A stretch of 64,000 bases of DNA from Anaerohalosphaera lusitana (GTDB lineage: Bacteria > Planctomycetota > Phycisphaerae > Sedimentisphaerales > Anaerohalosphaeraceae): contig NZ_CP019791.1 in NCBI RefSeq assembly GCF_002007645.1, positions 1,860,001 to 1,924,000 of the forward strand, read 5' to 3'. The notes beneath the pieces are model-generated. The model worked only from the letters and a program-made list of their open reading frames with translations. It was not told where the DNA came from and ran no database searches. A program made the translations under genes and the position numbers. Positions 11,813-64,000 of this stretch are shown one piece after another; the first letter of the stretch is position 1, and every line of letters begins with the position of its first letter.

Positions 11813-14800
11813 TCATCCTGTGTCTTCGAGCCAGTTTTCGGCGAGGATGGTTAGGTCGGCAATGTCTATTGTGCTGTCGTTGTTGAAGTCGGCGCGGGGG
11901 TTGAAGTTGGGCTGGTCGGGGGAGAGGGTCCAGGTGTTTGAGAGGGCAGCGAGGTCGGAGAGGTTTACGCCGTCGGGGCAGGTTATATCGGCTGCGGCGA
12001 ATTCCCACCAGAGGCGTGGGTATGCGGTGCCGTCTGTGCACATGCGCCAGATGTCTTCGGTGCCGTTTGCGGTTTCGCCGACGAAGTCCCAGCCTGCGTT
12101 GGTGAAGGTGGCGAGCGTTTGCATTTGGGTGGTGGTAAGGCCGGTGACATTTTCTATTGTTCCGGGCCAGTCTGAGTCCGTGAGGTACCCTGTATCTGTT
12201 TGGGCAGTTTCTGTATTCCAGAAGCAATTCCTGATTACTGCCTCTAGTTCGATGTTGATTCCTGTCACAGCGCAGGCATGATAGTAGTCATCTGTGGTTA
12301 CTGAGCCAACTGCATAGCATAGTTCAACGATACCTCCTCGGTTTTCCCCGCAAAGGCCTCCAACGGAACCTTGTTCTCCGGTTACATCCCCTGTAGCGTA
12401 AGAGTTTGATGTGCGGCCTTCATTTAGCCCACAGAGTCCGCCGAGAAATCGATGGGCGGTTACAGAGCCAGAAGCATAGCAACTGACTATAATTGAATCA
12501 GCATAGTTATTGCCACATAAGCCGCCAACAAATGAGTTGCCTATAACTGAACCTGCGGCAAAGCTTTTTTCCAGTATTCCTAAGTTAGCTCCGCACAGAC
12601 CGCCTACGATATCGCTTGGTGCTTCGATGCTGCCAGTGGCATAGCTTCTTGTAATACGTCCGTCGTTCCTACCACATAAGCCACCAATATTGCCACCATC
12701 ACTAAATGAAAGTATCCGGCTGTTAGAGTGGCTGTTGTCAATGCTTTGGGTATTAAACCCGCACAAGCCACCAACATTTACCAGTCCTTTACATATGCCT
12801 TCCGACCAGCAATTATTAAGTGAGCCACTGTTTATTCCGCAAATTCCTCCGACCGATTCGCCGCCAGTAATCTCGCATTCGGCGCTGCTTGAGTAAATAG
12901 TCCCGTTGTTCTTACCCGCCAGACCTCCTGCAAAATCAAGAGTGCAGTATATGTCGGCAGAGATTGAAACGGCTTCAATAAGTCCATCATTAATTCCGCA
13001 TAATCCTCCTATTGGGCCACGTCCAGTGACATCAAAACTCTCCAATTGCACATTTGTCACTTCACCTTCAGATCCTATGGCACCTATCAAGGCCATCAGA
13101 GGGTTGTCTGAGGAAATGGTGAAATAGCTAATATAGTGGTTTCTACCGTCAATACTCCCATTGAACGGAATGCCGTCAAATTGTTCCGTACCGTTATCGG
13201 TGTCTGGAGCGATAACAGGTTCGGAGTATATTTTGTCGAAGCCCATGAATACGTCGTTAGTCATTATGTAATGTGCGGACAAATCTTGATTAACACTCTC
13301 GAGGTCAGTGCGACAAGCTATCTCAAATGGGTTTGATGGCGATCCATCAGCAGAACTACCGGCCGAAACGTAAATGTCGATGGGTACGGAGGTGTGTACA
13401 TAACCGCCAGTGAAGACGGAGAGAGAGGTAACCTTATCTGCGGGTATGGTGAAACTGTTAACGTAGACAAGTTCGCCGGTTGCAAAACCTGCCGACATGA
13501 GTGCGTTTTGTGCTGAAGAGATGCTTTTACCCGTTAGATATGGGACCTGTGCTGTGTCTGCATGCTGCCATACGAGCTTGGGGTAATCATTGACAGGCAT
13601 ATACCAGCCTGGCGTTCCTGAACTCAAATCATTTACTACCCAGCCATCATCGATAAATGTGGAAGGAATTTGCATTTGAGCAGTTGTCTTTGCTAGTCCG
13701 CCTGCACTGGTTTGGATTTCCGAACTTTCCAAGTTCCAGAAGCTACGTTTTATACCACCAAAAATATTTTTCCCGATGAGGCCACCTAAATTGATGTTAC
13801 CTGATACTTTTCCAGTAGAATAGCAGTTTTCTATAAAGCCTCTTTCGTTCTTTCCAACGAGTCCACCTGTATTCTCATTTCCGGTTGGATTTCCGCTTGC
13901 GTAACAACGTGTGATAGAGGCTTTGAAGTTGATGCCACACAGACCGCCAACTGAGTTGGCGCCGCTGGCTTCTCCTGTCGCATAGCAGTCGGAAATACTG
14001 CCTAGGAAGTTACCGCCGCATAATCCACCCACTTCGTTCCCAGTTCCCAAGGCATTGCCAGTGGCAAAACTCTTATTGATAGTGCCTGTGTTTGCGGCGC
14101 ATAGACCACCAACTGCGGAACCACCGTTTGTGGTTCCGTTAGCATAGGAGAATTTGATAGTACCCAGGTTACCACTGCATAGACCACCCGCAGAGCTGTT
14201 TGAAAAAGTATTGCAATTCGCATGGCTGAATTCAATTCTACCTATATTTTGAGCACAGAGCCCTCCTACATAACTAAAGCCACTGACTGTTATATCCGTT
14301 GCAGTGCATGACAGTATTTTACCATAATTCTCAGCACAAAGGCCAGCAACTATATTTGGTCCAAAAGTTGCATCATTTTGTAATCTCAGGCCGACGAATG
14401 AATTTGTCACATGACAGTTTATTATTTGTCCGTTCTCGTTAATTGAACATAGGCTCGCCCAATGTACAGAATGACCCAAACCTGTGACCGTGAAACCGGT
14501 CAGATGAATATTCTTTATGGCTGAAGCTTCGCCCTCCATGCAGCCAAACAAAGCGAGGTAGTCCCTGTCTATTTCATCGCTGTTTATGGTCAGGTTGGAA
14601 ATTGAATGAGCATTGCCGTCGAAGACTCCGGTGAACGAGGTGCCTTGAAAATGGTTCGCAGTGTCAATATCCGGTGCGATTACGGCGGTGTTGTAGGTTT
14701 TGTCCGAGAGGTCAATATCTGTTTCGAGGCGGGTGTGGTCGTCCCAGTAGTTAGGGTCGGCGGCGAATTCGTCGAAGTGGGCTCTGGTCTGGATGAGCCA

Positions 14801-22055: not shown

Positions 22056-24515
22056 TCACTTCTTTTGTGATGCAAAGTTTTTGAGTTCTTCGGCCATGCT
22101 GTGAAGTCTGGTGTCAACCTCGTGGAAAATGGTCCCTTTCTGGTCAGGGGTGCCGGCCTGTTTGCCTGTGAGCAGTTCGAGGGCCTGATCGACTGTGGTG
22201 ACCGGATATATGTGGAACTCGCCTTCTTCGATGGCTTTTCTGACGTCTTTTCGAAGTATGAGATTTTTGACGTTGCTTTGCGGTATGCAGACGCCCTGTG
22301 TGCCGGTGATGCCTTTGGTTTTGCAGACGTCGAAGAAGCCTTCTACTTTTTCGTTTACGCCGCCAATGGCCTGGATCTGGCCGAACTGGTTGATCGAGCC
22401 GGTGATGCCGATATCCTGCCTTATCGGTACTCCGCTGATCGCGGAGAGCAGAGCAAGCAGTTCGGCAGCGGAGGCGGAATCGCCGTCGACGCCGGCATAG
22501 TTTTGTTCGAAGCAGATGGATGCCGATAGTGCAAGCGGTTTGTCCTTGCCGAACATGTTTCGGATGTAGCCGCCCAGTATGAGCACGCCCTTGTCGTGGG
22601 TGCTGCCGGAGAGTTTGGATTCGCGTTCGATGTTTATCAGGCCGTCGGTGCCGAGTCCGACCGAGGCGGTGACGCGTGACGGTTTGCCGAACATGTAATC
22701 GCCCAGGTCGAGGACGCCCAAGCCGTTTACCTGGCCCGGTGCGGTGCCTTCGGTGTCGATGAGTATGCTGCCCTCATCTATCATTTCGCGTATTTTTTCG
22801 GCAATACGGTTGGTGCGGTATACGCGGTTGTCGAGTGCCTTGAGGATGTGGTCTGCCGTGATGGTGTCGGCGTCGTCTTTTTGGGCGAAGTAGTTTGATT
22901 CGCGGAGGATGTCGGCGACTTCGGAGAATTTTGTAACGAGTTTCTGTTTGTCCGAGGCCTGCCTGGAGCCGAAGCGTACGATCTCTTTTGCTGCTTCGTT
23001 GTCTAAGGGGAGGAGTTTTTCGTCGCGAGCCAGTCGTGCGATGAATTGGACGTATTGAAATTGCTGCTTTTTGTCACGGTTCATTTCCGTGCCGAAATCT
23101 GCGCGGATCTTGAAGATTGAAGCGAATTCATCGTCGTAATGGCGGAGCAGTTGGTAGATGAGCGGGCTGCCTACGACGACAACCTTTGCGCTGACGGGTA
23201 TGGGCTGGGGGCGCAGTCCTCCGGTTGAGAAGGGCATGAAAGGGTTCAGGCTTTCGATCTGGAGGGTTCCGCTTTTGAGGACGCGTTTGAGATTTTTGTA
23301 TACGAACGGTTCGGTAAGTGCGTCCTCGATGTTGAATACGACGTAGCCGCCGTTGGCACGGAGTATGCTGCCTGCCTTTATCTGGGTGTGATTGGTGACG
23401 AGTCGGCCTCGTGCGTCGGCGGTTCGTTCGATGTGTCCGAAGAGGTTCTGGTAAGTGGGAGCTTCTTCGATGACGACGGGGGCGGTTTTGGATTTGTGAT
23501 GGTCGACGATGAGGTTGACCTGGTACTCGAGGAAGCGCGGTTGGGCGTCACCTCCGCCGCCCGTTAGACCCTGCATCAGGGCAGCAGTGGGATTTTGCTG
23601 TTTGTTCTGCTGGAACTTTTCGAGATTGTCCAGGATATGATCGGCGACCTGGTCGAGGTAGTTCAGTATTTCGTCATTGTCCTGGTAGCCTGATTTGATG
23701 GCTTCGATCATTGGCTGAACGACGTAGCTTGTGAAGCGTTTCTCGATCTGGCGGACCTCTTCGGTGAGTTCCTGCATGATGTCGCGCTGCTGCTGGATGA
23801 TGCAGTCGGCCTTTTTGGTCAGTTCCTGTTGACCTTCTTCAATGCGGTCCTTTTCTTCCTGGGGGAGTTCGTCATACTGCTCCTGGTTCTCGATGGGTTT
23901 GTCGTCGTGTTTCGGTATGAAGTTTATGCCGCCCTCGGATGTGAGGTTCATCTCGAAGCCGCGTTCTTTTGCGTCATTACGCAGGTCCTCGATCATTTCG
24001 TCGGTTTTTTTCTGGTACTTTGCACTGAGCTGCTGTTTTTCCTTGCTGAAATCTTCCTGACGAAAGGCTTTTGGCAGCGCCTGCTGCAAACGTTCAACGA
24101 GGTTGGACATGTCTTTCTGCAGTTGTTTGCCTTTGCCCGGTTTGAGTTTCATGCATCTCGGCTGGTCGGGGTCCTCGAAATTGTGGACGTATACCCAGTC
24201 CGCGGGGACCTTTGATCCGTCGAGGCGTTTTTTTAGGCTGCGCTTGACGGTGTTCATCTTGCCGGTTCCTGTCAGGCCGGCTACGTAGATGTTGTAGCCG
24301 TCCTGCGGTATGCCCAAGCCGACCTCGATGGCGTTCATGGCCTTGTCCTGGCCGAGGATCTCTTCAAGGGGTTCTACTTCGCTGGTGTTTTTAAATGCGA
24401 AAGTTCCGTCCTTGAAGTCTATGTCGACTTCGTCAGGGGTGAGTTGAACGGGTTCGTTCGCTTTTTTGAGTTTATGAGACTGTGTTTTGCGGGCTTGTTT
24501 AGTCTGCTTGGTCAT
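22056..24515 (-). CDS. Lon-type ATP-dependent protease (LonB-like, AAA plus S16 domains)
   Basis: 819 residues. An N-terminal AAA region carries the Walker A GLTGTGK, a long helical insertion (about residues 130-300) interrupts it, and a peptidase S16 domain follows. The catalytic dyad is Ser680 (GVDGDSASAAELL) and Lys723 (GGVNEKVEGFF), 43 residues apart as in E. coli Lon. GTAPGQVNGLGVLDLGDYMF is typical of this LonB-like cytoplasmic group, and no membrane segment is seen. It degrades damaged or regulatory proteins. The gene starts inside the stop of the upstream Hsp20 gene (ATGA), so the chaperone and protease are translationally coupled, a sensible protein-quality-control pair. Confidence 0.92.
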   Translation of the reverse strand: MTKQTKQARKTQSHKLKKANEPVQLTPDEVDIDFKDGTFAFKNTSEVEPLEEILGQDKAMNAIEVGLGIPQDGYNIYVAGLTGTGKMNTVKRSLKKRLDGSKVPADWVYVHNFEDPDQPRCMKLKPGKGKQLQKDMSNLVERLQQALPKAFRQEDFSKEKQQLSAKYQKKTDEMIEDLRNDAKERGFEMNLTSEGGINFIPKHDDKPIENQEQYDELPQEEKDRIEEGQQELTKKADCIIQQQRDIMQELTEEVRQIEKRFTSYVVQPMIEAIKSGYQDNDEILNYLDQVADHILDNLEKFQQNKQQNPTAALMQGLTGGGGDAQPRFLEYQVNLIVDHHKSKTAPVVIEEAPTYQNLFGHIERTADARGRLVTNHTQIKAGSILRANGGYVVFNIEDALTEPFVYKNLKRVLKSGTLQIESLNPFMPFSTGGLRPQPIPVSAKVVVVGSPLIYQLLRHYDDEFASIFKIRADFGTEMNRDKKQQFQYVQFIARLARDEKLLPLDNEAAKEIVRFGSRQASDKQKLVTKFSEVADILRESNYFAQKDDADTITADHILKALDNRVYRTNRIAEKIREMIDEGSILIDTEGTAPGQVNGLGVLDLGDYMFGKPSRVTASVGLGTDGLINIERESKLSGSTHDKGVLILGGYIRNMFGKDKPLALSASICFEQNYAGVDGDSASAAELLALLSAISGVPIRQDIGITGSINQFGQIQAIGGVNEKVEGFFDVCKTKGITGTQGVCIPQSNVKNLILRKDVRKAIEEGEFHIYPVTTVDQALELLTGKQAGTPDQKGTIFHEVDTRLHSMAEELKNFASQKK

Positions 24516-55041: not shown

Positions 55042-58000
55042 CTAAGGCACTGTAATAGAATCCGACGTCTCAACGTTCAGCGTCGCGTTGTAAGTCTTGC
55101 CGCTGACCGTCACGTCCGTCACGGTGAACGTAAACGTTCCGCCGTTCTTGACCTTATCAGCAGTCTCGAAGAACACCGTACCGTCCGCTGCGGTCGTTCC
55201 GCTCACGGTCCCGCTGTACGCGCCTGACCATGTACCGTAAACTGTCGCACCGCTCACGTTGGCACCCGTATCGTCCTTGATGTGAACCGTCGCCTGGCCC
55301 CAGTAATTCGGACCGGCATTACGCGAACCCATAACGATCGAATTGACATACATCTCGACCGTCTGCTGACCCTGCGGCGTAGCAGAAACCTCGCTCGATG
55401 TGCTCGACTCATTGCTGGCTGTATCAACAGCGGTGACAACATAGTAGTATGTCGTGCCGTTCGTCACGGTGTTATCAGTGTAGTCACTGCTCGACACGCC
55501 CTGGGCAACTGCCGCATAACCGCTGCCGCTCGTCGTACTGCGGTAAACAGTATAGCTGTCCAGATCGCTTTCGCTGTTATCCGCCCAGTCCAGATCAACC
55601 GAACCGTCGCCAGCCGTCGCACCAAGACCTGTAGGTGCTGCAGGCGCAGTCGTGTCCGCAGGTGTAGCAGATGCTTCACTGGAAGTATCCGACTCATTGT
55701 CACTCGTATCAACAGCAGTCACAACGTAGTAATAAGTCGTGTCGTTGGTAACCGTGTTGTCGGTGTAATCGCTGGTCGACACGCCAGTTGCAATAGAAGC
55801 ATATCCGCTGCCGCTCGTAGTGCTGCGATAAACGGTATAGCTGGCAAGATCCTGCTCACTGTTATCCGCCCAGTCAAGACTGACCGAACCATCACCTGCC
55901 GTAGCACCAAGACCAGTAGGCGCCGCAGGTGCAGTAGTATCACCTGTGTTAAACGTAACTGTCAAGCTGGGGTGATAGCTGGCAGTAACATGCTCCTTTG
56001 TTGCAAACGCGTTCCAGCCGGTACTACTCTGGGTTGTAGTATCAATATGGAAGGTTGCCGCGCTGTTTGTATTCATTGACTGTGTGAGCAACGTAGTTAC
56101 ATCGATGTTGTATGCCTGTTCAACTGTCAGATTGTTACTGGAGAAAGTGACTTCATTTCCACTGCCGACAGGGCTGTTGTTCCATGTGATGCCCGTCTCG
56201 TCCCACAGATCACCTGAGTCATCCGTCATACGCACACGAATCGTCCTGCTTGTTTGTACACTTGTCGGTGTCAATGTCAAAGTTGCGCTTTGAACATCGC
56301 CACTGCCCTGATTGCTATAGTCGAATCTGACAAACGATTCACGAGTGTACCCCGAATTGAAGTCATATTTGACACCCATGATGGAGTCGAGTCCGAAGTT
56401 GTCACCGGCATAACCTCCATCGCGAATATAACTGTCAGCACTTACTAAGGGTAAAACGCTCAATGTAGCCTCGCCGCCGCTGGTGTTTTCCTTTGACCTG
56501 AAACTCATGTTGCCATCGTTAATATTGCGTGTAATCAATAACGTGACTTCGTTATTCGTGTCTGCTTTGAGGAAATTGAGTAGATCTGCGCCTTCAATGC
56601 TGAATTCAGTTCCCGCCGCGGGTGCGCCGCCGCTCCATGAGAAAGTGCCAACTTGGGTTGTATCCGTATCCTCGGCGAAGTCAGGCGAAAGCGGGGCATT
56701 TGCGCCGGTGATGCCGGACTCCGTCCAGTCGGTACCGAGATTATCACCTGGACGACCGTCGATAATACCCCAGACAGTGATAGTTCCTGAGCTTACATCA
56801 GCGCTGTTAACCGTCAATGTCAGCTTAGCCCTTGCGCCGAGCTCTTTACCGGTAAGGTCAAAATGTATCCACCCGGTACGTGTGTAAGTTGACCCTGCAC
56901 CAGCCGAGCTGCGTTTGACCACGACAGCAGTTGATCCGCCGTAATTGTTGCTGTTGGTGCCTTCGACATAGGTGTCTGCATCAGTAGCGAGCGACCATGT
57001 CGGCGTGACCTCGATCTGCATCATAGCAAGGCCTGTTGCTGTCTGTCCGGTGCTGTCGGCTATTACATAATGAAAATAGTCCATGCCCTCAGTGTCATCC
57101 GGAGCAGTGTAGCTGATCTCGTCTCGGCCGTTCGGACCTGTTCCGGTAGAGATACTGACCGTTCCACCCCTTTCGGAGGTCGATTCGACGCTCAAGATCG
57201 AAAGTGTATCAGCATTCGCATCGAAATCATTAGCTAACACGTCAATCGTGATGCTGCTCTGGGTCTCAACACCATCTGTAACGATGTCAAGAGCTGCGTA
57301 AGGCGGTACGTCCACGCCGGTGTATGCTCCGCCGATGCTGTAAAGTTTCGTGCCGATGTTGCCGTCTCTGTGTGCGAGGTGATCCCGAACACTTGTGCCG
57401 CAGAATCGGGCTATACCATTACCGCACATGATGGTGTTGCCTTCAGGGCTGTTGCCGTCCCAGTCACCTGCACCGAAGTTATGACCGGTTTCATGCCGGC
57501 CTGCTCCCATGTACCAGCCTGTGCTCTTGACCTGAGACACATTATAGGTTCCGGGGCTGTATGCCACTCCGCCGCCGATGTTAGGGCTTGCTAACATAGC
57601 TTTGAAGCAATATGCCATCGCATCCGAGTGATTGTTTGACCATTCATTTGCAAATGGACTCAGCAGGGCGGTACCGCTTATGCCCTGATACGGGCAATGT
57701 GTCTGCGAGCTTCTGATTACCACTCGACCAATACAATTCAGCATCATGTTGTCGCGAAGCTGTATCGCTTTCCATGCGCACATATTCTTCTCTACCTGTT
57801 CCATAGTTGTTGCGAGACTGCTGCCATAGATCGTGCTGAATGCGTCATAATCGACATCAAAACCCATTTCATACTTGTAGACTGTGCTGCCTGCCTGTCC
57901 TGGCGTAACAGTAGAAGCGCTCGGCCAGGCATATGTGGGTGAAGGAACGCTCTTGTTCGTGACAGAACTGCCGAGCGTGCTCCACTTTTCGCCTCTGTCC

Positions 58001-58326
58001 AGATACATGAGCGCCCAGAGATCGCCGTCCGTTTGCAAATAGCCGACCACAAGGGCATCGTCCAGTTCGCTTACATAACCCACATAGGTTCTCACCTCGT
58101 CAGGCGTATAACTGTCATACGTGCCGGACGAGTTCTGTACCAGCACGTTGAAGTTCGGCCCCCGCAGGCTCTCTTTGAACATATTCAACGTATAACTGTT
58201 AGTGCCGTCCGATACCGTTTGAGTGATCGTGTCGGGCACTACGGCCAGACTTGAGCCTGTTACAAATAACATACTTAGTGCGCATAGGATAAGCGCAGTT
58301 GAACTCAGATTAATCCTGTGTGACAT
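55042..58326 (-). CDS. Secreted metzincin-like protease with DNRLRE and FN3 modules
   Basis: 1094 residues with GGAG eight bases before the ATG and a signal peptide (STALILCALSMLFVTGSSLA). The N-terminal 330 residues form a metallopeptidase with the zinc motif HETGHNFGAGD (His278, Glu279, His282, Asp288), the HExxHxxGxxD form of metzincins. Then come an Ig/cadherin-like domain (ADTLSILSVESTSERGGTVS), two DNRLRE modules (ATDADTYVEGTNSNNYGG), two nearly identical FN3 domains and a final beta domain (SGATVYGTWSGAYSGTVSGT). It lacks the dockerin-like tail of its neighbours. It should cut extracellular protein; the other modules probably bind polysaccharide or cell surface. Confidence 0.85.
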   Translation of the reverse strand: MSHRINLSSTALILCALSMLFVTGSSLAVVPDTITQTVSDGTNSYTLNMFKESLRGPNFNVLVQNSSGTYDSYTPDEVRTYVGYVSELDDALVVGYLQTDGDLWALMYLDRGEKWSTLGSSVTNKSVPSPTYAWPSASTVTPGQAGSTVYKYEMGFDVDYDAFSTIYGSSLATTMEQVEKNMCAWKAIQLRDNMMLNCIGRVVIRSSQTHCPYQGISGTALLSPFANEWSNNHSDAMAYCFKAMLASPNIGGGVAYSPGTYNVSQVKSTGWYMGAGRHETGHNFGAGDWDGNSPEGNTIMCGNGIARFCGTSVRDHLAHRDGNIGTKLYSIGGAYTGVDVPPYAALDIVTDGVETQSSITIDVLANDFDANADTLSILSVESTSERGGTVSISTGTGPNGRDEISYTAPDDTEGMDYFHYVIADSTGQTATGLAMMQIEVTPTWSLATDADTYVEGTNSNNYGGSTAVVVKRSSAGAGSTYTRTGWIHFDLTGKELGARAKLTLTVNSADVSSGTITVWGIIDGRPGDNLGTDWTESGITGANAPLSPDFAEDTDTTQVGTFSWSGGAPAAGTEFSIEGADLLNFLKADTNNEVTLLITRNINDGNMSFRSKENTSGGEATLSVLPLVSADSYIRDGGYAGDNFGLDSIMGVKYDFNSGYTRESFVRFDYSNQGSGDVQSATLTLTPTSVQTSRTIRVRMTDDSGDLWDETGITWNNSPVGSGNEVTFSSNNLTVEQAYNIDVTTLLTQSMNTNSAATFHIDTTTQSSTGWNAFATKEHVTASYHPSLTVTFNTGDTTAPAAPTGLGATAGDGSVSLDWADNSEQDLASYTVYRSTTSGSGYASIATGVSTSDYTDNTVTNDTTYYYVVTAVDTSDNESDTSSEASATPADTTAPAAPTGLGATAGDGSVDLDWADNSESDLDSYTVYRSTTSGSGYAAVAQGVSSSDYTDNTVTNGTTYYYVVTAVDTASNESSTSSEVSATPQGQQTVEMYVNSIVMGSRNAGPNYWGQATVHIKDDTGANVSGATVYGTWSGAYSGTVSGTTAADGTVFFETADKVKNGGTFTFTVTDVTVSGKTYNATLNVETSDSITVP
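55375..55944 (-). repeat. Two tandem 285-base FN3 repeats inside the protease gene
   Basis: Copies at 55660-55944 and 55375-55659 encode two FN3 domains of 95 residues each. They share ATAGDGSVxLDWADNSExDL and YTVYRSTTSGSGYA. The exact 95-codon spacing shows a recent in-frame duplication. Confidence 0.85.
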
Positions 58327-58632: not shown

Positions 58633-61425
58633 TCAATTGAGCCATTCTTCCGCAAACCATCTCAGGTCATCGAAATCAACTATGTTATCACCGCCGGCCG
58701 GATATATATCGCCTGCACCGCTGCTTTGCCAGTTCCCGATAAGCAGGCTGTAGTCCGCGTAATCGACTCGGCCGTCAAGATTGATATCAGCCACCAGGCC
58801 TGGAGTCGCAGACACTTCAATCGAATAAGCGGATTCGTCGCCGTTACTGTCTACAGCCGTTACAACGTAATAGTACGTCGTCTCATTAACGACCTGATTG
58901 TCCGTGAAGTTCGTTCCCACACTGATGCCCACCAACTCATAAGCTGCATTGCTCCGCTCGGCTCGATAAACCCTGTATTGTGATATAGTCTGATCCTGCG
59001 ATTCGTCCCATTCCAGCTTGACAAATCCATTTCCATTGACTGCGAACAGTCCACCAGGTGCCGATGGGGCAGGGTCACTCATCGTCACATTCAGCCTGGG
59101 ATGCCAGGCTGGATCAGAGTACTCTTTTGTTGCGAACTGATTTACACCGGTCTGTGCCGAAGTTATTGTGTCAAGTCTGAAAGACGCTACTGTGTTCTGA
59201 TTGATGGACTGGTTCAGCAACTGCGTAACATCAACAGTATACGGCTGACCTGCTCTCAATGAAGAGCTGTAGATGTATATAGATCCGCCCGTGGAGGCAG
59301 GGGCGCTGTTCCAGGTAATGCTGCTTTCATCCCAGCCGTCATCAGCATCGTCAAGAAGCTGCAGACGCAGTGTCCTGCTGCCCTGAACCGAGGTTGGCAT
59401 GAGCGTCAAGGTCGCATTTTCTATCGACCCGCTTCCCGCATTAGCATAGTCGAAGGAGAAATAAGAATTTCTGACATAGGTGTCATAGCTGTCCAGTTTG
59501 ACCTTCATACTGTTCTCAGCACCGAAATTGTCATTTGCGTAGGAACCGCCCCGGACATATGTATCCTGTGCAGGCTGCTTTGCTACGCTGAGGGTCGCTC
59601 CAAATCCGCTCTCTCGTGACTTTATAGCAAAGTTGCCGTCGTTCGGATTTCTAGCCAGCAAGAAAGTTACTTCGCCGTTCGTGTTCGCTGCCAGGAACTC
59701 CGCCAGTTCGGGCGTCTGTATGGTGAATGTTTCGCTCGGTGAAATAGCAAATGAACCCACAAGAGTTGTGTTTTCGTCTTCTGCAAAATCGGGCTTAAGC
59801 GGAGCATTGGAACCGGTAATACTGCCCTCGCTCCAGTCTGTTCCAAGCTCGTCACCGGGTCGGCCGTCCTTGACGCCCCACACATTCACAGTTCCACCGG
59901 AGTCTCCGCTGTTGCGTGTGAATGTCAAACGCGCATTGCTTGCAAGCTGCTTGCCGCTTATGTCGAAATGCACCCATCCGGTACGTGTCCAGGACGTAGT
60001 TGCGCCCGCAGTGCTTCGCTTGATCACGATATAGCCCGCACTGCCGAAGTTGTCATTATCGTAGTGGCCTTCAACAAAAGTGTCCGCATCCGTTTCGACC
60101 GTCCACATCGGAGGAATTATGACGTTGAGCTTTACCACAACCAGCCCGCTTGCCTTCTGACCGCTGCTGTCTTCACAGACGTAATAGAACCAGTCAAGAC
60201 CTTCAGCGTTCGCAGGGGCCGTGTAGATCAGTTCGTCACGACCATTCGGTCCGGTACCGCTGGAAATTGTTACAGTCCCGCCGCGATTTGTAGTGCTGTC
60301 TACACTGGCTATAGAAAGGGAATGGCCGTTTCCATCGTGATCATTTGCGATTGGATCAAATGTTATACTCTTGGAAATATTAGGTGTTGATGTCATTTCG
60401 ACAGTATCCAGTGCAGCATAGGGAGGAAGATTCACTGTCGCATAGGTCCCAACAGAATACAATTTGGTGCCTATCCGACTGTCGCGATGGTTTAGCATGT
60501 CCTGCACCCCGGGCCCGCAATACCTGCCTCTCTGATTGCCGCACATCAGAGTGGGCCCTTCGGGGTTGTTTGCTTCATAGTCGGCAATACCCCAATTGTG
60601 TCCGATCTCGTGTCGCCAGGTTGTCACGAATTGACCATTGCTTTTAGTGGAATTGACTGAATAAGACCCTCCAAGATAAGCCACTCCGCCGCCGTAAGAA
60701 GGCAGCATCAGACCGACTTTAAAGCAGTAACCCATATCCTCACTCCATGCTCCCGATATCCTCGTCAGGTTGCTGTTGCCCGCGGACAGATCATACGGAG
60801 TCTGGCTGGCCGAGGCGCGGATGACCACCTTGCCGATCACCGGCTTGAGTATCGCATCCCGCATATGTATCGCCGCCAGCTCTGCCATGCAGTACTCCAC
60901 GTTCTCCATCGTCCTGGAATAACTGGAATTGTATATCTGAGAAAAAGTGGTGTAATCGATATCGATCCCCACCTGGTATTCGTACATTGTGGTCCCCCCG
61001 TGACCCGCACTGACTGTCGGAGTTGTCGGCCACCGGACCGAGAATGACTGCGTCCCATTGCCCCCAACTTTAGTACTGCCTTCATAGTATTCCGTCACAC
61101 CCCGGTCGAAATATACCACACTGCGAAAGACTCCGTTCGACTGCAGATAGCCCGCAACATTCGCAAACGGATCCTCGTCGACCGTGCCGAGATATGTCCG
61201 AACCTCACCTGCATCGTAATCTGCAAACGCCCCCGAATCCTGCTGTATCTTCACGTTGAAATCCGGCCCCCGCAGACTCTCCCTGGTCAATCTCAAGGTA
61301 TACTGCTGACCATCACTGTAAACAACTTGCGTAAAGTTCTCCGGCGTCACCGCATACGAACTCGCTTCAACACCAGTTATCATAATAATTGCACACATCC
61401 AAGTACTGATCACCCTTGTTTTCAT
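58633..61425 (-). CDS. Secreted metzincin-like protease with DNRLRE, FN3 and dockerin-like modules
   Basis: 930 residues from the ATG at 61425 (AAAGGTG upstream; a GTG at 61434 is in frame). Signal peptide STWMCAIIMITGVEASSYAV. The peptidase domain has HEIGHNWGIAD (His272, Glu273, His276, Asp282). It is followed by a cadherin-like domain, two DNRLRE modules (TDADTFVEGHYDNDNFGS), one FN3 domain and a C-terminal dockerin-like pair (VADINLDGRVDYADYSLLIG; NIVDFDDLRWFAEEWLN). Paralogue of the 55042 gene along most of its length; that copy has an extra FN3 domain and no dockerin-like end. Probably exported and attached to the surface or a complex. Confidence 0.85.
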   Translation of the reverse strand: MKTRVISTWMCAIIMITGVEASSYAVTPENFTQVVYSDGQQYTLRLTRESLRGPDFNVKIQQDSGAFADYDAGEVRTYLGTVDEDPFANVAGYLQSNGVFRSVVYFDRGVTEYYEGSTKVGGNGTQSFSVRWPTTPTVSAGHGGTTMYEYQVGIDIDYTTFSQIYNSSYSRTMENVEYCMAELAAIHMRDAILKPVIGKVVIRASASQTPYDLSAGNSNLTRISGAWSEDMGYCFKVGLMLPSYGGGVAYLGGSYSVNSTKSNGQFVTTWRHEIGHNWGIADYEANNPEGPTLMCGNQRGRYCGPGVQDMLNHRDSRIGTKLYSVGTYATVNLPPYAALDTVEMTSTPNISKSITFDPIANDHDGNGHSLSIASVDSTTNRGGTVTISSGTGPNGRDELIYTAPANAEGLDWFYYVCEDSSGQKASGLVVVKLNVIIPPMWTVETDADTFVEGHYDNDNFGSAGYIVIKRSTAGATTSWTRTGWVHFDISGKQLASNARLTFTRNSGDSGGTVNVWGVKDGRPGDELGTDWSEGSITGSNAPLKPDFAEDENTTLVGSFAISPSETFTIQTPELAEFLAANTNGEVTFLLARNPNDGNFAIKSRESGFGATLSVAKQPAQDTYVRGGSYANDNFGAENSMKVKLDSYDTYVRNSYFSFDYANAGSGSIENATLTLMPTSVQGSRTLRLQLLDDADDGWDESSITWNSAPASTGGSIYIYSSSLRAGQPYTVDVTQLLNQSINQNTVASFRLDTITSAQTGVNQFATKEYSDPAWHPRLNVTMSDPAPSAPGGLFAVNGNGFVKLEWDESQDQTISQYRVYRAERSNAAYELVGISVGTNFTDNQVVNETTYYYVVTAVDSNGDESAYSIEVSATPGLVADINLDGRVDYADYSLLIGNWQSSGAGDIYPAGGDNIVDFDDLRWFAEEWLN

Positions 61426-61510
61426 TTTAAGCACCTTTAATGCAAACTACATATCATACGGCATCACATAGATACCGTGGCAAAACCCTGTATTTCGCCA
61501 AAAAAAATCA

Positions 61511-61586: not shown

Positions 61587-63608
61587 TTACTGAATGCAGT
61601 CCGGGACCAGCCCGCAGTCGAGCCAGTTATTCGCGAACTCTGCGAAGTCATAAAGATTCACTACACAATCCTGTTCGCCGTTAGGACCGCTGATGTCCAT
61701 TGCAGGACGATCGATGCATGTTGCAAGACCGGTATAGTCCTTGTAGACGCTAGCAACTTCTACTTCATTCAGGCCATAGTTGAAGATGCGGACATCATCC
61801 ATAGCACCGGGGAACGGATCGGAATTGATGCCCTTTGCACCGATCACGATGGGAGCGTCAGTCGCGTTATCAAGCTGTGCATACGTCGTGGAACCTTCGA
61901 GTGCTCCGTTAACATAGATCCTGAAGTAATCTCCGTCGAACGTTGCACAAACGTGCGTCCATTCATTCGCCGGTACCAGACCGTTAGTTGACAGGTACGA
62001 ACCTGCGTTGTAGAACCACAGACCCGCATTATCACCAGACTTGCCGCGGAGCACGAAGAACCATCTGTCCGTGTCAACGCCATAACCGTCAGCCTTTGAG
62101 ATGATACCGCTGCCGTATGTGGCAGGACCAGTTCCGTCCCATTTGATCCATGCACTTACGCTGATCTGACCGGTAAACGCTGAAGGATCCCATGTCCCTG
62201 CATTCGCCCAACTGTCGGAACCGATCTCAACACCGCCGCCGGCAGTGCCGTCAAACTGTTCTACAAAAACAGGCGCGCTGTTCGGATCAGCATTGTGTCC
62301 GCCGATAACATCAACATACTGATCATTTACATAGTCGCCCTGATCGAGCGTCCACCTGGCCAGTTCCTGCTTATAGCCGATGGTTATATCGTTACTAGGT
62401 GTGCTGCCGCCGTTGCTTGTGATCGTAACAACACAGTTGTAAACGCCTTCATCCGTAGCTTCAAATGGCGAGATCGTCAGTGTAGGCCCAGTCTCTACTT
62501 CTTCGGTGCCGTTCTTATACCACTGGAACTCGAGTCCGGTAGCGTCCATCGTGAATGGATTGTACGCGTCAATGGTGTACTCGAGCGTTTCGCCCAGTTC
62601 AGCGATGACGATCTGCTCGTCAGGCTGAGATACGATCACGGGAACCGAAGGCACCGTCGTGAACGACCATGTCTTGCCTGTTACAACAGTGCTGTCGAGC
62701 ATCACCTCATCGACACGCCAGTAGTAAGTCGTATCACGGCTGAAATCGGCAGAGTCATAGCTGGCAGTTGCGTCCGTGTTGTCAACCTGCACAGGAGTAA
62801 CGCCTGCGAAGTTTGGATCGTCGGTCTGCAGGTATACATTGTGATAATCGATGTCAGGATGAGCCTGCGAAGGATTAGCAGGATCCAGACCCGTGCTCCA
62901 GTAGAGAACCTGATCCTCGAAAATGCCCGTTGCGCCGGCTTCAGGAGTTGGATCCCATGCCGCAGGTGCAAGCGTCATTTCCAGTGTCGCAGCGCCGCCG
63001 TTTGCATTCTCTCGAGATCTGAGCTCGAAGTTCTGATCGTTCACGTTTCGGGTGACGATGATCGTCACTTCGCCGTTTGTGTCAGCGTTCAGAAATTCTA
63101 CCAGTTCCAGTGTCTGTACCGTCTTCGCATCGCCGGCGGCCCAGTCCGAAACATCGATCGTGCCCAGAACAGTGGTGTTCTCGTCTTCAGCAAAATCCGG
63201 CGTCAGCGGAGCGTTGCTGCCGCTGATAGTCATTTCTTCCCAGTCCGTGCCGTAAGTGTCGCCGGGCTGGCCGTCAATGACACCCCAGAAAGTCAGTGTG
63301 CCGCTCGATACTGAATTGCTGCTTTCGTCGCGCGTGACCGTAAGAATTGCATCACTTGCGATCGGCGGCATGGAAGCCAGATCGAAATGGATCCAGGTCG
63401 TGCGTGTCCATGCTGACGATGCCCCAGCCGAACTGCGCTTGACTACCAAAGCCTCTTTATCGCCGTGGTTGTCGCCATCACCTTCTACATATGTGTCTGC
63501 GTCGGTCGTCGTAACTGCTGCATGACCGACACCCGTTGTCAACCCAATGCAGGCTAGAACAACAAGCCATACAAAGCAGCGTTTAAAGTTTTTACTTTTG
63601 ACGTTCAT
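61587..63608 (-). CDS. Secreted DNRLRE / Ig-like / LamG protein with dockerin-like C-terminus
   Basis: 673 residues with GGAGG nine bases before the ATG and a signal peptide (FVWLVVLACIGLTTGVGHA). Domain order: DNRLRE (TTDADTYVEGDGDNHGDKEA), an FN3-like linker (ATGIFEDQVLYWSTGLDPAN), an Ig-like domain (FQWYKNGTEEVETGPTLTIS, CVVTITSNGG), then a LamG/concanavalin-like domain (ISVSAWIKWDG, PGAMDDVRIFNYGL). The end is a dockerin-like segment (CVVNLYDFAEFANNWLDCGL). No catalytic site is seen. It is likely a carbohydrate- or surface-binding protein exported with its protease neighbours. Confidence 0.85.
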   Translation of the reverse strand: MNVKSKNFKRCFVWLVVLACIGLTTGVGHAAVTTTDADTYVEGDGDNHGDKEALVVKRSSAGASSAWTRTTWIHFDLASMPPIASDAILTVTRDESSNSVSSGTLTFWGVIDGQPGDTYGTDWEEMTISGSNAPLTPDFAEDENTTVLGTIDVSDWAAGDAKTVQTLELVEFLNADTNGEVTIIVTRNVNDQNFELRSRENANGGAATLEMTLAPAAWDPTPEAGATGIFEDQVLYWSTGLDPANPSQAHPDIDYHNVYLQTDDPNFAGVTPVQVDNTDATASYDSADFSRDTTYYWRVDEVMLDSTVVTGKTWSFTTVPSVPVIVSQPDEQIVIAELGETLEYTIDAYNPFTMDATGLEFQWYKNGTEEVETGPTLTISPFEATDEGVYNCVVTITSNGGSTPSNDITIGYKQELARWTLDQGDYVNDQYVDVIGGHNADPNSAPVFVEQFDGTAGGGVEIGSDSWANAGTWDPSAFTGQISVSAWIKWDGTGPATYGSGIISKADGYGVDTDRWFFVLRGKSGDNAGLWFYNAGSYLSTNGLVPANEWTHVCATFDGDYFRIYVNGALEGSTTYAQLDNATDAPIVIGAKGINSDPFPGAMDDVRIFNYGLNEVEVASVYKDYTGLATCIDRPAMDISGPNGEQDCVVNLYDFAEFANNWLDCGLVPDCIQ

Positions 63609-63645
63609 CTTATGTAACCTCCAATAAGAGTTTAGCTGGATTTAA

Positions 63646-64000
63646 TTACTGACAGTCAGGCGCCAGACCGCATTCGAGCCATCCGGACATGAATTCGACC
63701 AGGTCGTCGATCTCGACTATGCAGTCGCCGTCGAAGTCCATAGGGTTAGATTCGAAGCAGATGGATTCTCCAGAGCCGGTGGTGTAAAGCGTTGCGATCT
63801 CCAGATCCGTCAGAGCATAGTTATAGATGCGGAAATCGTCCATGTATCCGGTGTATGTGGTGCTGTCACCGGAACCGATCCAGAACATATCGGGTGCTTC
63901 AAGTGCCTTGGTCAGGCCAGTACCTTCGTGCCATTTCTGCCCGTTGAGCCAGATGCTCATGGTTCCCGCAGTTACGTCCTTGATGAACACGGCATGGTTC
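63646..64000 (-). CDS. LamG-domain protein, C-terminal part (runs off the window)
   Basis: The frame is open to the right edge, so this is a partial gene of at least 117 codons. It holds the end of a LamG/concanavalin-like domain (AVFIKDVTAGTMSIWLNGQK, GYMDDFRIYNYALTDLEIAT) and a dockerin-like tail (FDGDCIVEIDDLVEFMSGWL, then ECGLAPDC). The tail matches that of the neighbour at 61587 (WL.CGL.PDC). The gene stops 38 bases before the next start on the same strand. Confidence 0.8.
   Translation of the reverse strand, partial: NHAVFIKDVTAGTMSIWLNGQKWHEGTGLTKALEAPDMFWIGSGDSTTYTGYMDDFRIYNYALTDLEIATLYTTGSGESICFESNPMDFDGDCIVEIDDLVEFMSGWLECGLAPDCQ

Follow-up and report, generated by a model that had tools for sequence, protein, structure and literature searches.

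Dockerin-related C-terminal tails, including a four-cysteine single-repeat form, on putatively exported proteins of Anaerohalosphaera lusitana

Two kinds of dockerin-related tail

Four proteins encoded in a 64,000-base stretch of the genome of the planctomycete Anaerohalosphaera lusitana (order Sedimentisphaerales; contig NZ_CP019791.1; hereafter the window) end in tails that profile comparisons identify as dockerin-related modules, and two of these tails belong to a short form, with a single repeat and four cysteines, that is nearly confined to the order. The window corresponds to bases 1860001-1924000; the genome, a single contig of 4,250,973 bases, is 99.96% complete. Our favoured reading, for and against which we find the balance even, is that the tails are docking or anchoring modules whose partner is not a recognisable cohesin. 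A preliminary description, made from the letters of the window, had noticed a common WL-type C-terminus on the proteins of the open reading frames (ORFs) 11813, 58633, 61587 and 63646, and all four were confirmed at these ORFs on the minus strand. The tails of 11813 and 58633 consist of two dockerin-type loop-helix repeats, and those of 61587 and 63646 of one repeat with four cysteines (four-Cys tails). The final CGLxPDC that the same description had seen in the latter two is present in both, the true ends being CGLVPDCIQ (61587) and CGLAPDCQ (63646), and the identity between these two tails is 48%.

The relation to dockerins was found by several comparisons. Against the Dockerin_1 model (cut-off 22.9 bits), 11813 scored 20.1 bits in the protein scan and 23.5 bits in the six-frame genome search, and 58633 scored 14.9 bits, under the cut-off; 61587 and 63646 gave no match in the protein scan. 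Among the 29 two-repeat proteins of the genome, 12 matched Dockerin_1 at E <= 1e-3. A profile of 22 four-Cys tails matched the solved dockerins 2y3n_B (E 2e-6) and 6kg9_A (E 3.1e-6), values that refer to whole two-repeat chains, the best single stretch of 2y3n_B giving 0.0079; calmodulin-type EF-hand proteins followed, from 2.9e-3. Profile comparison of the four-Cys tail with the two-repeat proteins of the genome gave a probability of 96.6% and an E value of 6.6e-10 over 27 columns. When the 22 tails were scanned singly, six matched Dockerin_1 (best E 0.015, under the Pfam cut-off) and six matched the GC-type dockerin model NF041540 at E <= 0.1 (best 6.8e-4), the 61587 tail reaching 14.4 bits with the latter, under its cut-off of 29. 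The dockerin-like character suggested beforehand was thus borne out by the Dockerin_1 matches of 11813 and 58633 and by the matches of the four-Cys profile to solved dockerins.

Genome-wide occurrence and carrier proteins

A six-frame search of the genome with Dockerin_1 found 81 places at E <= 10, of which 26 were marked as over the cut-off (eight of these only together with their neighbours), and a profile of the two CGLxPDC tails found 84 places at E <= 1. The matches of both were merged into 125 clusters, one of which shared the cohesin ORF described below with another, leaving 124 loci for study. The clusters are not exhaustive, and the GC-type dockerin model marks further places outside them, near G000:C1:1639731-1639865 and 1646885-1647019 (G000 being the A. 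lusitana genome). A score matrix of 21 residues recognised 165 repeat copies in the ORFs of the 124 loci and none after shuffling; some of these repeats had served to seed the matrix, and profile hits to pick the loci, which favours the count of 165 and leaves the shuffled zero and the positions unaffected.

The repeats lie mostly at C-termini. In 102 loci the ORF is closed and ends soon after the hit, and in the other 22 it runs more than 150 residues beyond. The preliminary description had proposed a count of the proteins ending in the motif and had expected the motif at C-termini and not at random positions; in 98 of the 102 closed ORFs a repeat lies no more than 75 residues from the C-terminus, and 126 of 137 repeats end at most 60 residues from it, compared with 13.3 expected under a uniform distribution. 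By class, 34 of the 98 tailed ORFs have one repeat with four cysteines, 35 one repeat and 29 two repeats. Four closed ORFs showed no repeat near the end by the score matrix; two of them (L102 and L103) do show WL tails in the correct frame, leaving L187 and L212. The repeat is internal or near the N-terminus in 19 of the 22 longer loci, which correspond to 18 further ORFs as L145 falls in the ORF of L146; L099, L100 and L121 were without a repeat, the first two falling in an ORF that is complete in L101. In L104, L170 and L203 the dockerin-type repeat follows closely behind an N-terminal hydrophobic segment. The module is strongly, not strictly, C-terminal. Long frames of 1051, 3523 and 3735 residues were seen in L101 (G000:C1:970796-974641), L140 and L217, respectively, with near-terminal or internal WL repeats. 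The genes with tails are clustered in the genome, 57 of the 98 lying within 8 kb of another, where 30 were expected at random and the maximum in 1000 trials was 49.

The carriers appear to be exported and are otherwise varied. By a crude hydrophobicity rule, a signal-peptide-like start is present in all 34 four-Cys ORFs, all 29 two-repeat ORFs and 32 of the 35 one-repeat ORFs, compared with 7 of 24 control ORFs from the window and one of the four closed ORFs without a repeat. Domain scans covered the 34 four-Cys and the 29 two-repeat proteins. Ig_3 was found in 21 of the 34 four-Cys proteins and GH43, GH2, NAGLU and beta-helix domains in single cases (among the 25 of 28 families listed), beside a prevalent Laminin_G_3 (LamG) domain that is considered further below. 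The two-repeat proteins contained LamG in six cases, Reprolysin_5 in five and subtilase in three, with single cases of GH18, GH38, alpha-amylase and others (among the 25 of 62 families listed). A common destination is suggested by the range of unrelated exported proteins on which the module is found.

The strong C-terminal bias of the repeats, together with two exosortase genes in the genome, could also be read as a C-terminal sorting signal for a secretion or anchoring machine, such as a sortase, an exosortase or a type IX-like system. PEP-CTERM and LPXTG signals consist of a C-terminal hydrophobic helix and then basic residues. In none of the 98 tails was a hydrophobic stretch of 18 residues (mean Kyte-Doolittle hydropathy >= 1.6) found within the last 45 residues, the net charge of the tails ranges from -13 to -1 with a mean of -6.9, and 19 other loci have the repeat internally or near the N-terminus. 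These properties contradict the sortase-type sorting tag that had been suggested in the preliminary description, and a sorting role of this sort seems to us very improbable. A PEP-CTERM or sortase signal was rejected on the hydrophobicity and charge of the tails, the sortase and type IX families themselves having been left outside the searches. The strong matches to EpsH-type exosortases are at G000:C1:3473449-3474231 and 3181527-3182282, and it is probable that a PEP-CTERM-like sorting route, distinct from the tails, exists in the genome as well.

Anatomy of the four-cysteine form

The 22 aligned four-Cys tails gave the consensus C1-x(5-10)-D-x-N-x-D-C2-x-V-D-x-x-D-F-A-x-F-A-x-x-W-L-x-C3-[GN]-x-x-P-x-C4, with eight columns, loop position 1 among them, invariant in the gapped alignment. 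Loop positions 1, 3, 5, 9 and 12 are the calcium-binding ones of dockerins. In the 34 four-Cys tails of the genome, position 5 is D in 33, position 9 is D or N in 32 and position 12 is D in all; in the 28 that lack an insertion, position 1 is always D and position 3 is N or D in 27. The remaining six tails have a GPxGE-type insertion within the loop, and in 61587, which is one of them, GPNGE sits in the EF-hand-type loop. It is from the conserved ligand positions only that we infer calcium binding by the tails.

The cysteines tend to occur in pairs. Among the tails of 93 of the 102 closed ORFs that could be parsed, the cysteines C3 and C4 are both present or both absent in 90, and likewise C1 and C2 in 75, figures to be read with C1 being loosely defined and paralogues not being independent. 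C1-C2 is found without C3-C4 in 12 of the 93 tails and C3-C4 without C1-C2 in two, L109 and L158, the latter with C-P-C; L119, outside the parsed set, ends in CGLVPHC and is without C1-C2. Two disulfides, C1-C2 and C3-C4, would give such a pattern.

The four-Cys tails share with type I dockerins (PF00404) the EF-hand-type loop-helix repeat, ligands in the order D-x-N-x-D-x-x-V-D-x-x-D, the presence on exported multidomain proteins and a mostly C-terminal place. Type I dockerins are defined by two tandem repeats, which are present in 11813 and 58633, whereas each of the 34 four-Cys tails has one. The four-Cys form further differs in the cysteine that replaces glycine 6 of the dockerin loop (C2), in the occasional GPxGE insertion, in the closing loop of CGLxPDC type and in host genomes that are mostly without a detected cohesin.

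In an AlphaFold2 model of the LamG domain and tail of 61587 (42 rows in the alignment), the LamG domain was predicted confidently, with a mean predicted local distance difference test score (pLDDT) of 90.9 and a predicted template modelling score (pTM) of 0.85, and was followed by an irregular loop and then a helix at residues 194-206; the last five residues had a pLDDT of about 62. Modelled alone, the 48-residue tail gave a loop and helix as in the larger model, with lower confidence (mean pLDDT 82.4, pTM 0.60). In a fold search with the LamG domain and tail, the matches listed were lectin-like domains, aligned to residues 1-176 of 215; the modelled LamG domain reached a Z of about 17 against solved lectin-like domains.

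Distribution in the order and the scarcity of cohesins

The four-Cys profile matched at E <= 1e-5 in all 78 genomes of the order, A. lusitana included, at 1 to at least 93 places each, counts that include tails without all the cysteines. Among 199 genomes of the phylum, it matched five at E <= 1e-6, every one of them a member of the order. Of 248 sampled genomes of the class, 47 were matched, namely 46 of the order and one of the 202 others; among the genomes listed no member of the order was without a match, 181 match-less genomes standing outside that listing. When 84,980 named species were scanned, each represented by one genome, 128 related stretches came to light; 79 loci were retained from these, all but one labelled as Planctomycetota or a subgroup of it; the named ones include Sedimentisphaerales and other metagenome-assembled genomes of Phycisphaerae. 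The strict four-Cys pattern was present in 30 of the 79 kept loci (71 parsed), the others having two cysteines or a different spacing. From this distribution, the four-Cys form looks like an order-level invention. A four-Cys LamG tail was also seen on a 5.9 kb contig labelled as Bacteroidales (L257, SLRB01000208.1), which is perhaps a binning error.

Cohesins were found in a single protein of the A. lusitana genome, at G000:C1:2212744-2218629 on the minus strand (L063:1245-7130), in which a subtilase domain and TIG are followed by a cohesin, an internal dockerin of another sequence type, a second cohesin and a two-repeat WL tail. A counterpart in the genome G041 is likewise WL-tailed. Within the order, Pfam cohesin was detected in three of the 78 genomes (G000, G035 and G041), as compared with tails and dockerins in all 78, and 41 of the 44 genomes with a completeness of 90% or more and a contamination of 5% or less were without a detected cohesin; in the phylum, 28 of 199 genomes had one. 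A profile made from the cohesins of A. lusitana also marked three of the 78 genomes, G000, G041 and, marginally, G026 (E 0.0097), and missed G035. By eye, the ORF in G026 resembles a GLUG-repeat protein with WL repeats at its end, and it was not counted as a cohesin. A cohesin as the general partner of the tails was rejected on its detection in only three of the 78 genomes, a result that holds unless cohesins here have diverged beyond both profiles. The preliminary description had proposed a docking tag for a shared scaffold and had expected a co-occurring cohesin-like partner. The dockerin relation of the tag stood; the scaffold is unproven, with cohesins confined to one protein and to 3 of 78 genomes, and the expected partner is largely absent, the cross-genome search for partners having covered cohesin only.

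The tails might nevertheless be clients of the two cohesins of this subtilase-cohesin-dockerin-cohesin protein, forming with it a small cellulosome- or planctosome-like complex. Such a protein exists in the genome and has its counterpart in G041, and a Coh2-Doc1-Coh1 protein and 13 dockerin proteins are described for Limihaloglobus sulfuriphilus (PMC11557425). However, 75 of the 78 genomes of the order have tails and no detected cohesin, and two cohesins would have to serve about a hundred tails. The cohesin protein is itself WL-tailed, with an internal dockerin of the other type, which suggests that it is one more client of the partner of the tails. We consider the binding of the tails to these two cohesins improbable.

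Docking module or structural cap

The relation to dockerins, the conservation of ligands and cysteines, the export-type starts, the portability of the module and its spread through the order together led us to favour anchoring. Portability is indicated by carriers that include both LamG and unrelated proteins, by internal and N-terminal copies and by tandem paralogues that differ in the tail. The last point comes from ORFs 55042 and 58633, which are 49% identical over 883 residues and then diverge; past this point 55042 continues with a duplicate of a unit some 90 residues long (Fn3-like by eye) and with a C-terminal stretch of another kind, and 58633 has its tail, as if the tail were an exchangeable part.

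In the anchoring mechanism that we propose, the module, once exported, would fold around calcium and be held by two disulfides, of which C1-C2 would close the calcium loop and C3-C4 the end of the tail. The folded module would then be a common handle by which the proteins are anchored or docked to a partner that they share, located on the envelope or within the extracellular matrix. This partner would not be a cohesin recognisable by Pfam; it may be either a cohesin that has diverged strongly or a receptor unrelated to cohesins. As with calcium binding, the disulfides and the common destination of the tailed proteins are inferred. A more far-reaching version, which we regard as possible though tentative, is that the order has a docking system of its own, in which a stapled half-dockerin with a single EF-hand is present in many copies in many genomes, a surface receptor replaces the cohesin, and much of the secretome is thereby kept at the cell or within a matrix.

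Several observations weigh against anchoring. In addition to the rarity of cohesins in the order by both the Pfam and the A. lusitana profile, the exposed helix positions 7, 11, 15, 18 and 19 are variable in the four-Cys set (2.6-3.1 bits), and no invariant docking face is visible in the four-Cys helix apart from its W-L-x-C end. A fold search with the tail alone returned eight matches, all at E >= 4.5 and none with Z >= 2, by which a dockerin fold is neither shown nor excluded. Laminin_G_3 is found in 30 of the 34 four-Cys proteins, which also fits the main rival explanation, namely that the tail is a structural cap, a plug stabilised by calcium and disulfides that guards the C-terminal end of the beta-sandwich before it, LamG in most cases, against unfolding and proteolysis in the extracellular space and has no partner. 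Such a cap would agree with conservation limited to the calcium ligands, core hydrophobic residues and cysteines, with exposed positions free to vary, and with 75 of 78 genomes having no detected cohesin. It is at odds with the same repeats occurring on many unrelated proteins, also internally or behind N-terminal hydrophobic segments, and with the close tandem paralogue 55042 being without a tail. Characterised dockerins are docking modules, which also weighs against a cap. We regard the cap as a serious but less probable explanation than anchoring.

The two explanations differ in what they would mean. Dockerins are frequent in planctomycetes, and in the literature, as far as the available texts go, their partner is either a proposed cohesin or undiscussed. 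A dockerin-type module of about 40 residues, stapled by cysteines and present on dozens of proteins in organisms mostly without a detectable cohesin, makes the question of the partner directly testable. If the tail binds a new receptor, the two would be a new docking pair and would explain how these anaerobic polymer degraders retain their enzymes; if it is a cap, the dockerin annotation in these genomes misleads predictions of cellulosomes.

Comparison with known docking systems

Among the known systems close to the tails are the GC-type dockerins (NF041540), a C-terminal variant that is likewise expanded in planctomycetes of the same class without a detected cohesin. They differ in having two repeats, one cysteine before them and one near the very end, and F at the place where the four-Cys form has W (4 loci). 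NF041540 passes its own cut-off at four places in the A. lusitana genome. In G079, G111, G171 and G245, which belong to one other family of the same class, the GC-type model has at least 28 matches each, with 135 to 223 first-look candidates per genome, and no cohesin was found in the four genomes at E <= 0.001. In these genomes dockerin tails have undergone a sister expansion.

Docking by a shortened or stapled module has parallels in truncated bacterial dockerins and in fungal dockerins. The dockerins of anaerobic fungi (CBM10-like) are disulfide-stapled docking modules of about 40 residues, with a scaffold unrelated to bacterial cohesins and without a calcium-loop repeat; the fungal dockerin/CBM10 family gave no match to the 22 four-Cys tails at E <= 0.1 in Pfam-A. 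For the group 2 truncated dockerins of Ruminococcus flavefaciens FD-1, a single-binding mode has been proposed (PMC2930009); this bacterium has a cohesin-based cellulosome, and the word 'cysteine' is absent from the main text of that paper. A truncated type-II dockerin has been reported in Acetivibrio (PMC3413522).

Within the phylum, a planctosome has been proposed for Nemodlikiaceae, in which peptidases are joined by cohesin-dockerin pairs (PMC6461901). It resembles the present case in having planctomycete dockerins on M12B-like peptidases and a small cohesin protein, the Reprolysin matches found here being under the cut-offs. Both this account and that of L. sulfuriphilus (PMC11557425) rest on the pairing of cohesin and dockerin, whereas here 75 of 78 genomes have tails and no detected cohesin, and no four-Cys single-repeat form is described in the available text of either. 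A cellulosome-type complex needs a scaffoldin with multiple cohesins; here there is one protein with two cohesins, and none was detected in 75 of the 78 genomes. Dockerin_1 has been found to be proportionally higher in huge proteins of Planctomycetota (PMC11573180), a study of domain frequency whose main text leaves cohesin unmentioned. The words dockerin and cohesin are absent from the main text of two genomic papers on the phylum and class (PMC11131199 and PMC11266412). In the open-licence literature on planctomycete dockerins, within its available texts and with the species descriptions of the order lying outside the coverage, we found no description of the four-Cys single-repeat form.

Features of the window

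The coordinates of the tails, of the adjoining domains and of the ORFs that carry or lack a tail are given in Table 1. The ORF 63646 is cut by the edge of the window; extended into the neighbouring DNA, it has 585 codons from stop to stop and a signal-peptide-like start. The 11813 protein also contains GLUG repeats and a PASTA match, the latter under the PASTA cut-off.

Table 1 Tails, adjoining domains and related ORFs, in positions of the window
Feature	Position	Strand	Basis
Four-Cys single-repeat dockerin-like tail of the 61587 protein (residues 626-673)	61590..61733	-	Predicted loop and helix
Four-Cys single-repeat dockerin-like tail of the 63646 protein	63649..63783	-	Sequence profile
Two-repeat WL dockerin-like tail of the 58633 protein	58636..58797	-	Dockerin_1 match under the cut-off
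Two-repeat WL dockerin-like tail of the 11813 protein	11816..11980	-	Dockerin_1, E 0.00075 in the protein scan, 23.5 bits in the six-frame search
Laminin_G_3 (concanavalin-like) domain of 61587, adjoining the four-Cys tail	61752..62180	-	93.9 bits, cut-off 27.6
C-terminal part of the Laminin_G_3 domain of 63646, adjoining the tail	63793..63969	-	37.2 bits, over the cut-off of 27.6
ORF 61587: signal-peptide-like start, CBM96, Ig-like stretch (under the cut-off), LamG, four-Cys tail	61587..63608	-	
ORF 58633: Reprolysin_5 match (under the cut-off), Big_9, CBM96, WL tail; tandem paralogue of 55042	58633..61434	-	
ORF 55042: tail-less tandem paralogue of 58633, weak M12-type metallopeptidase match	55042..58326	-	

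Ten further ORFs were scanned between window positions 22056 and 54961. Four of the ten were without a Pfam match at 1e-5, and the genes recognised in this part of the window include those for a Lon-like protease, an alpha-amylase with a maltokinase cap, a GH77 protein and a GH57 protein with DUF3536, as well as BatA- and VWA-type genes.

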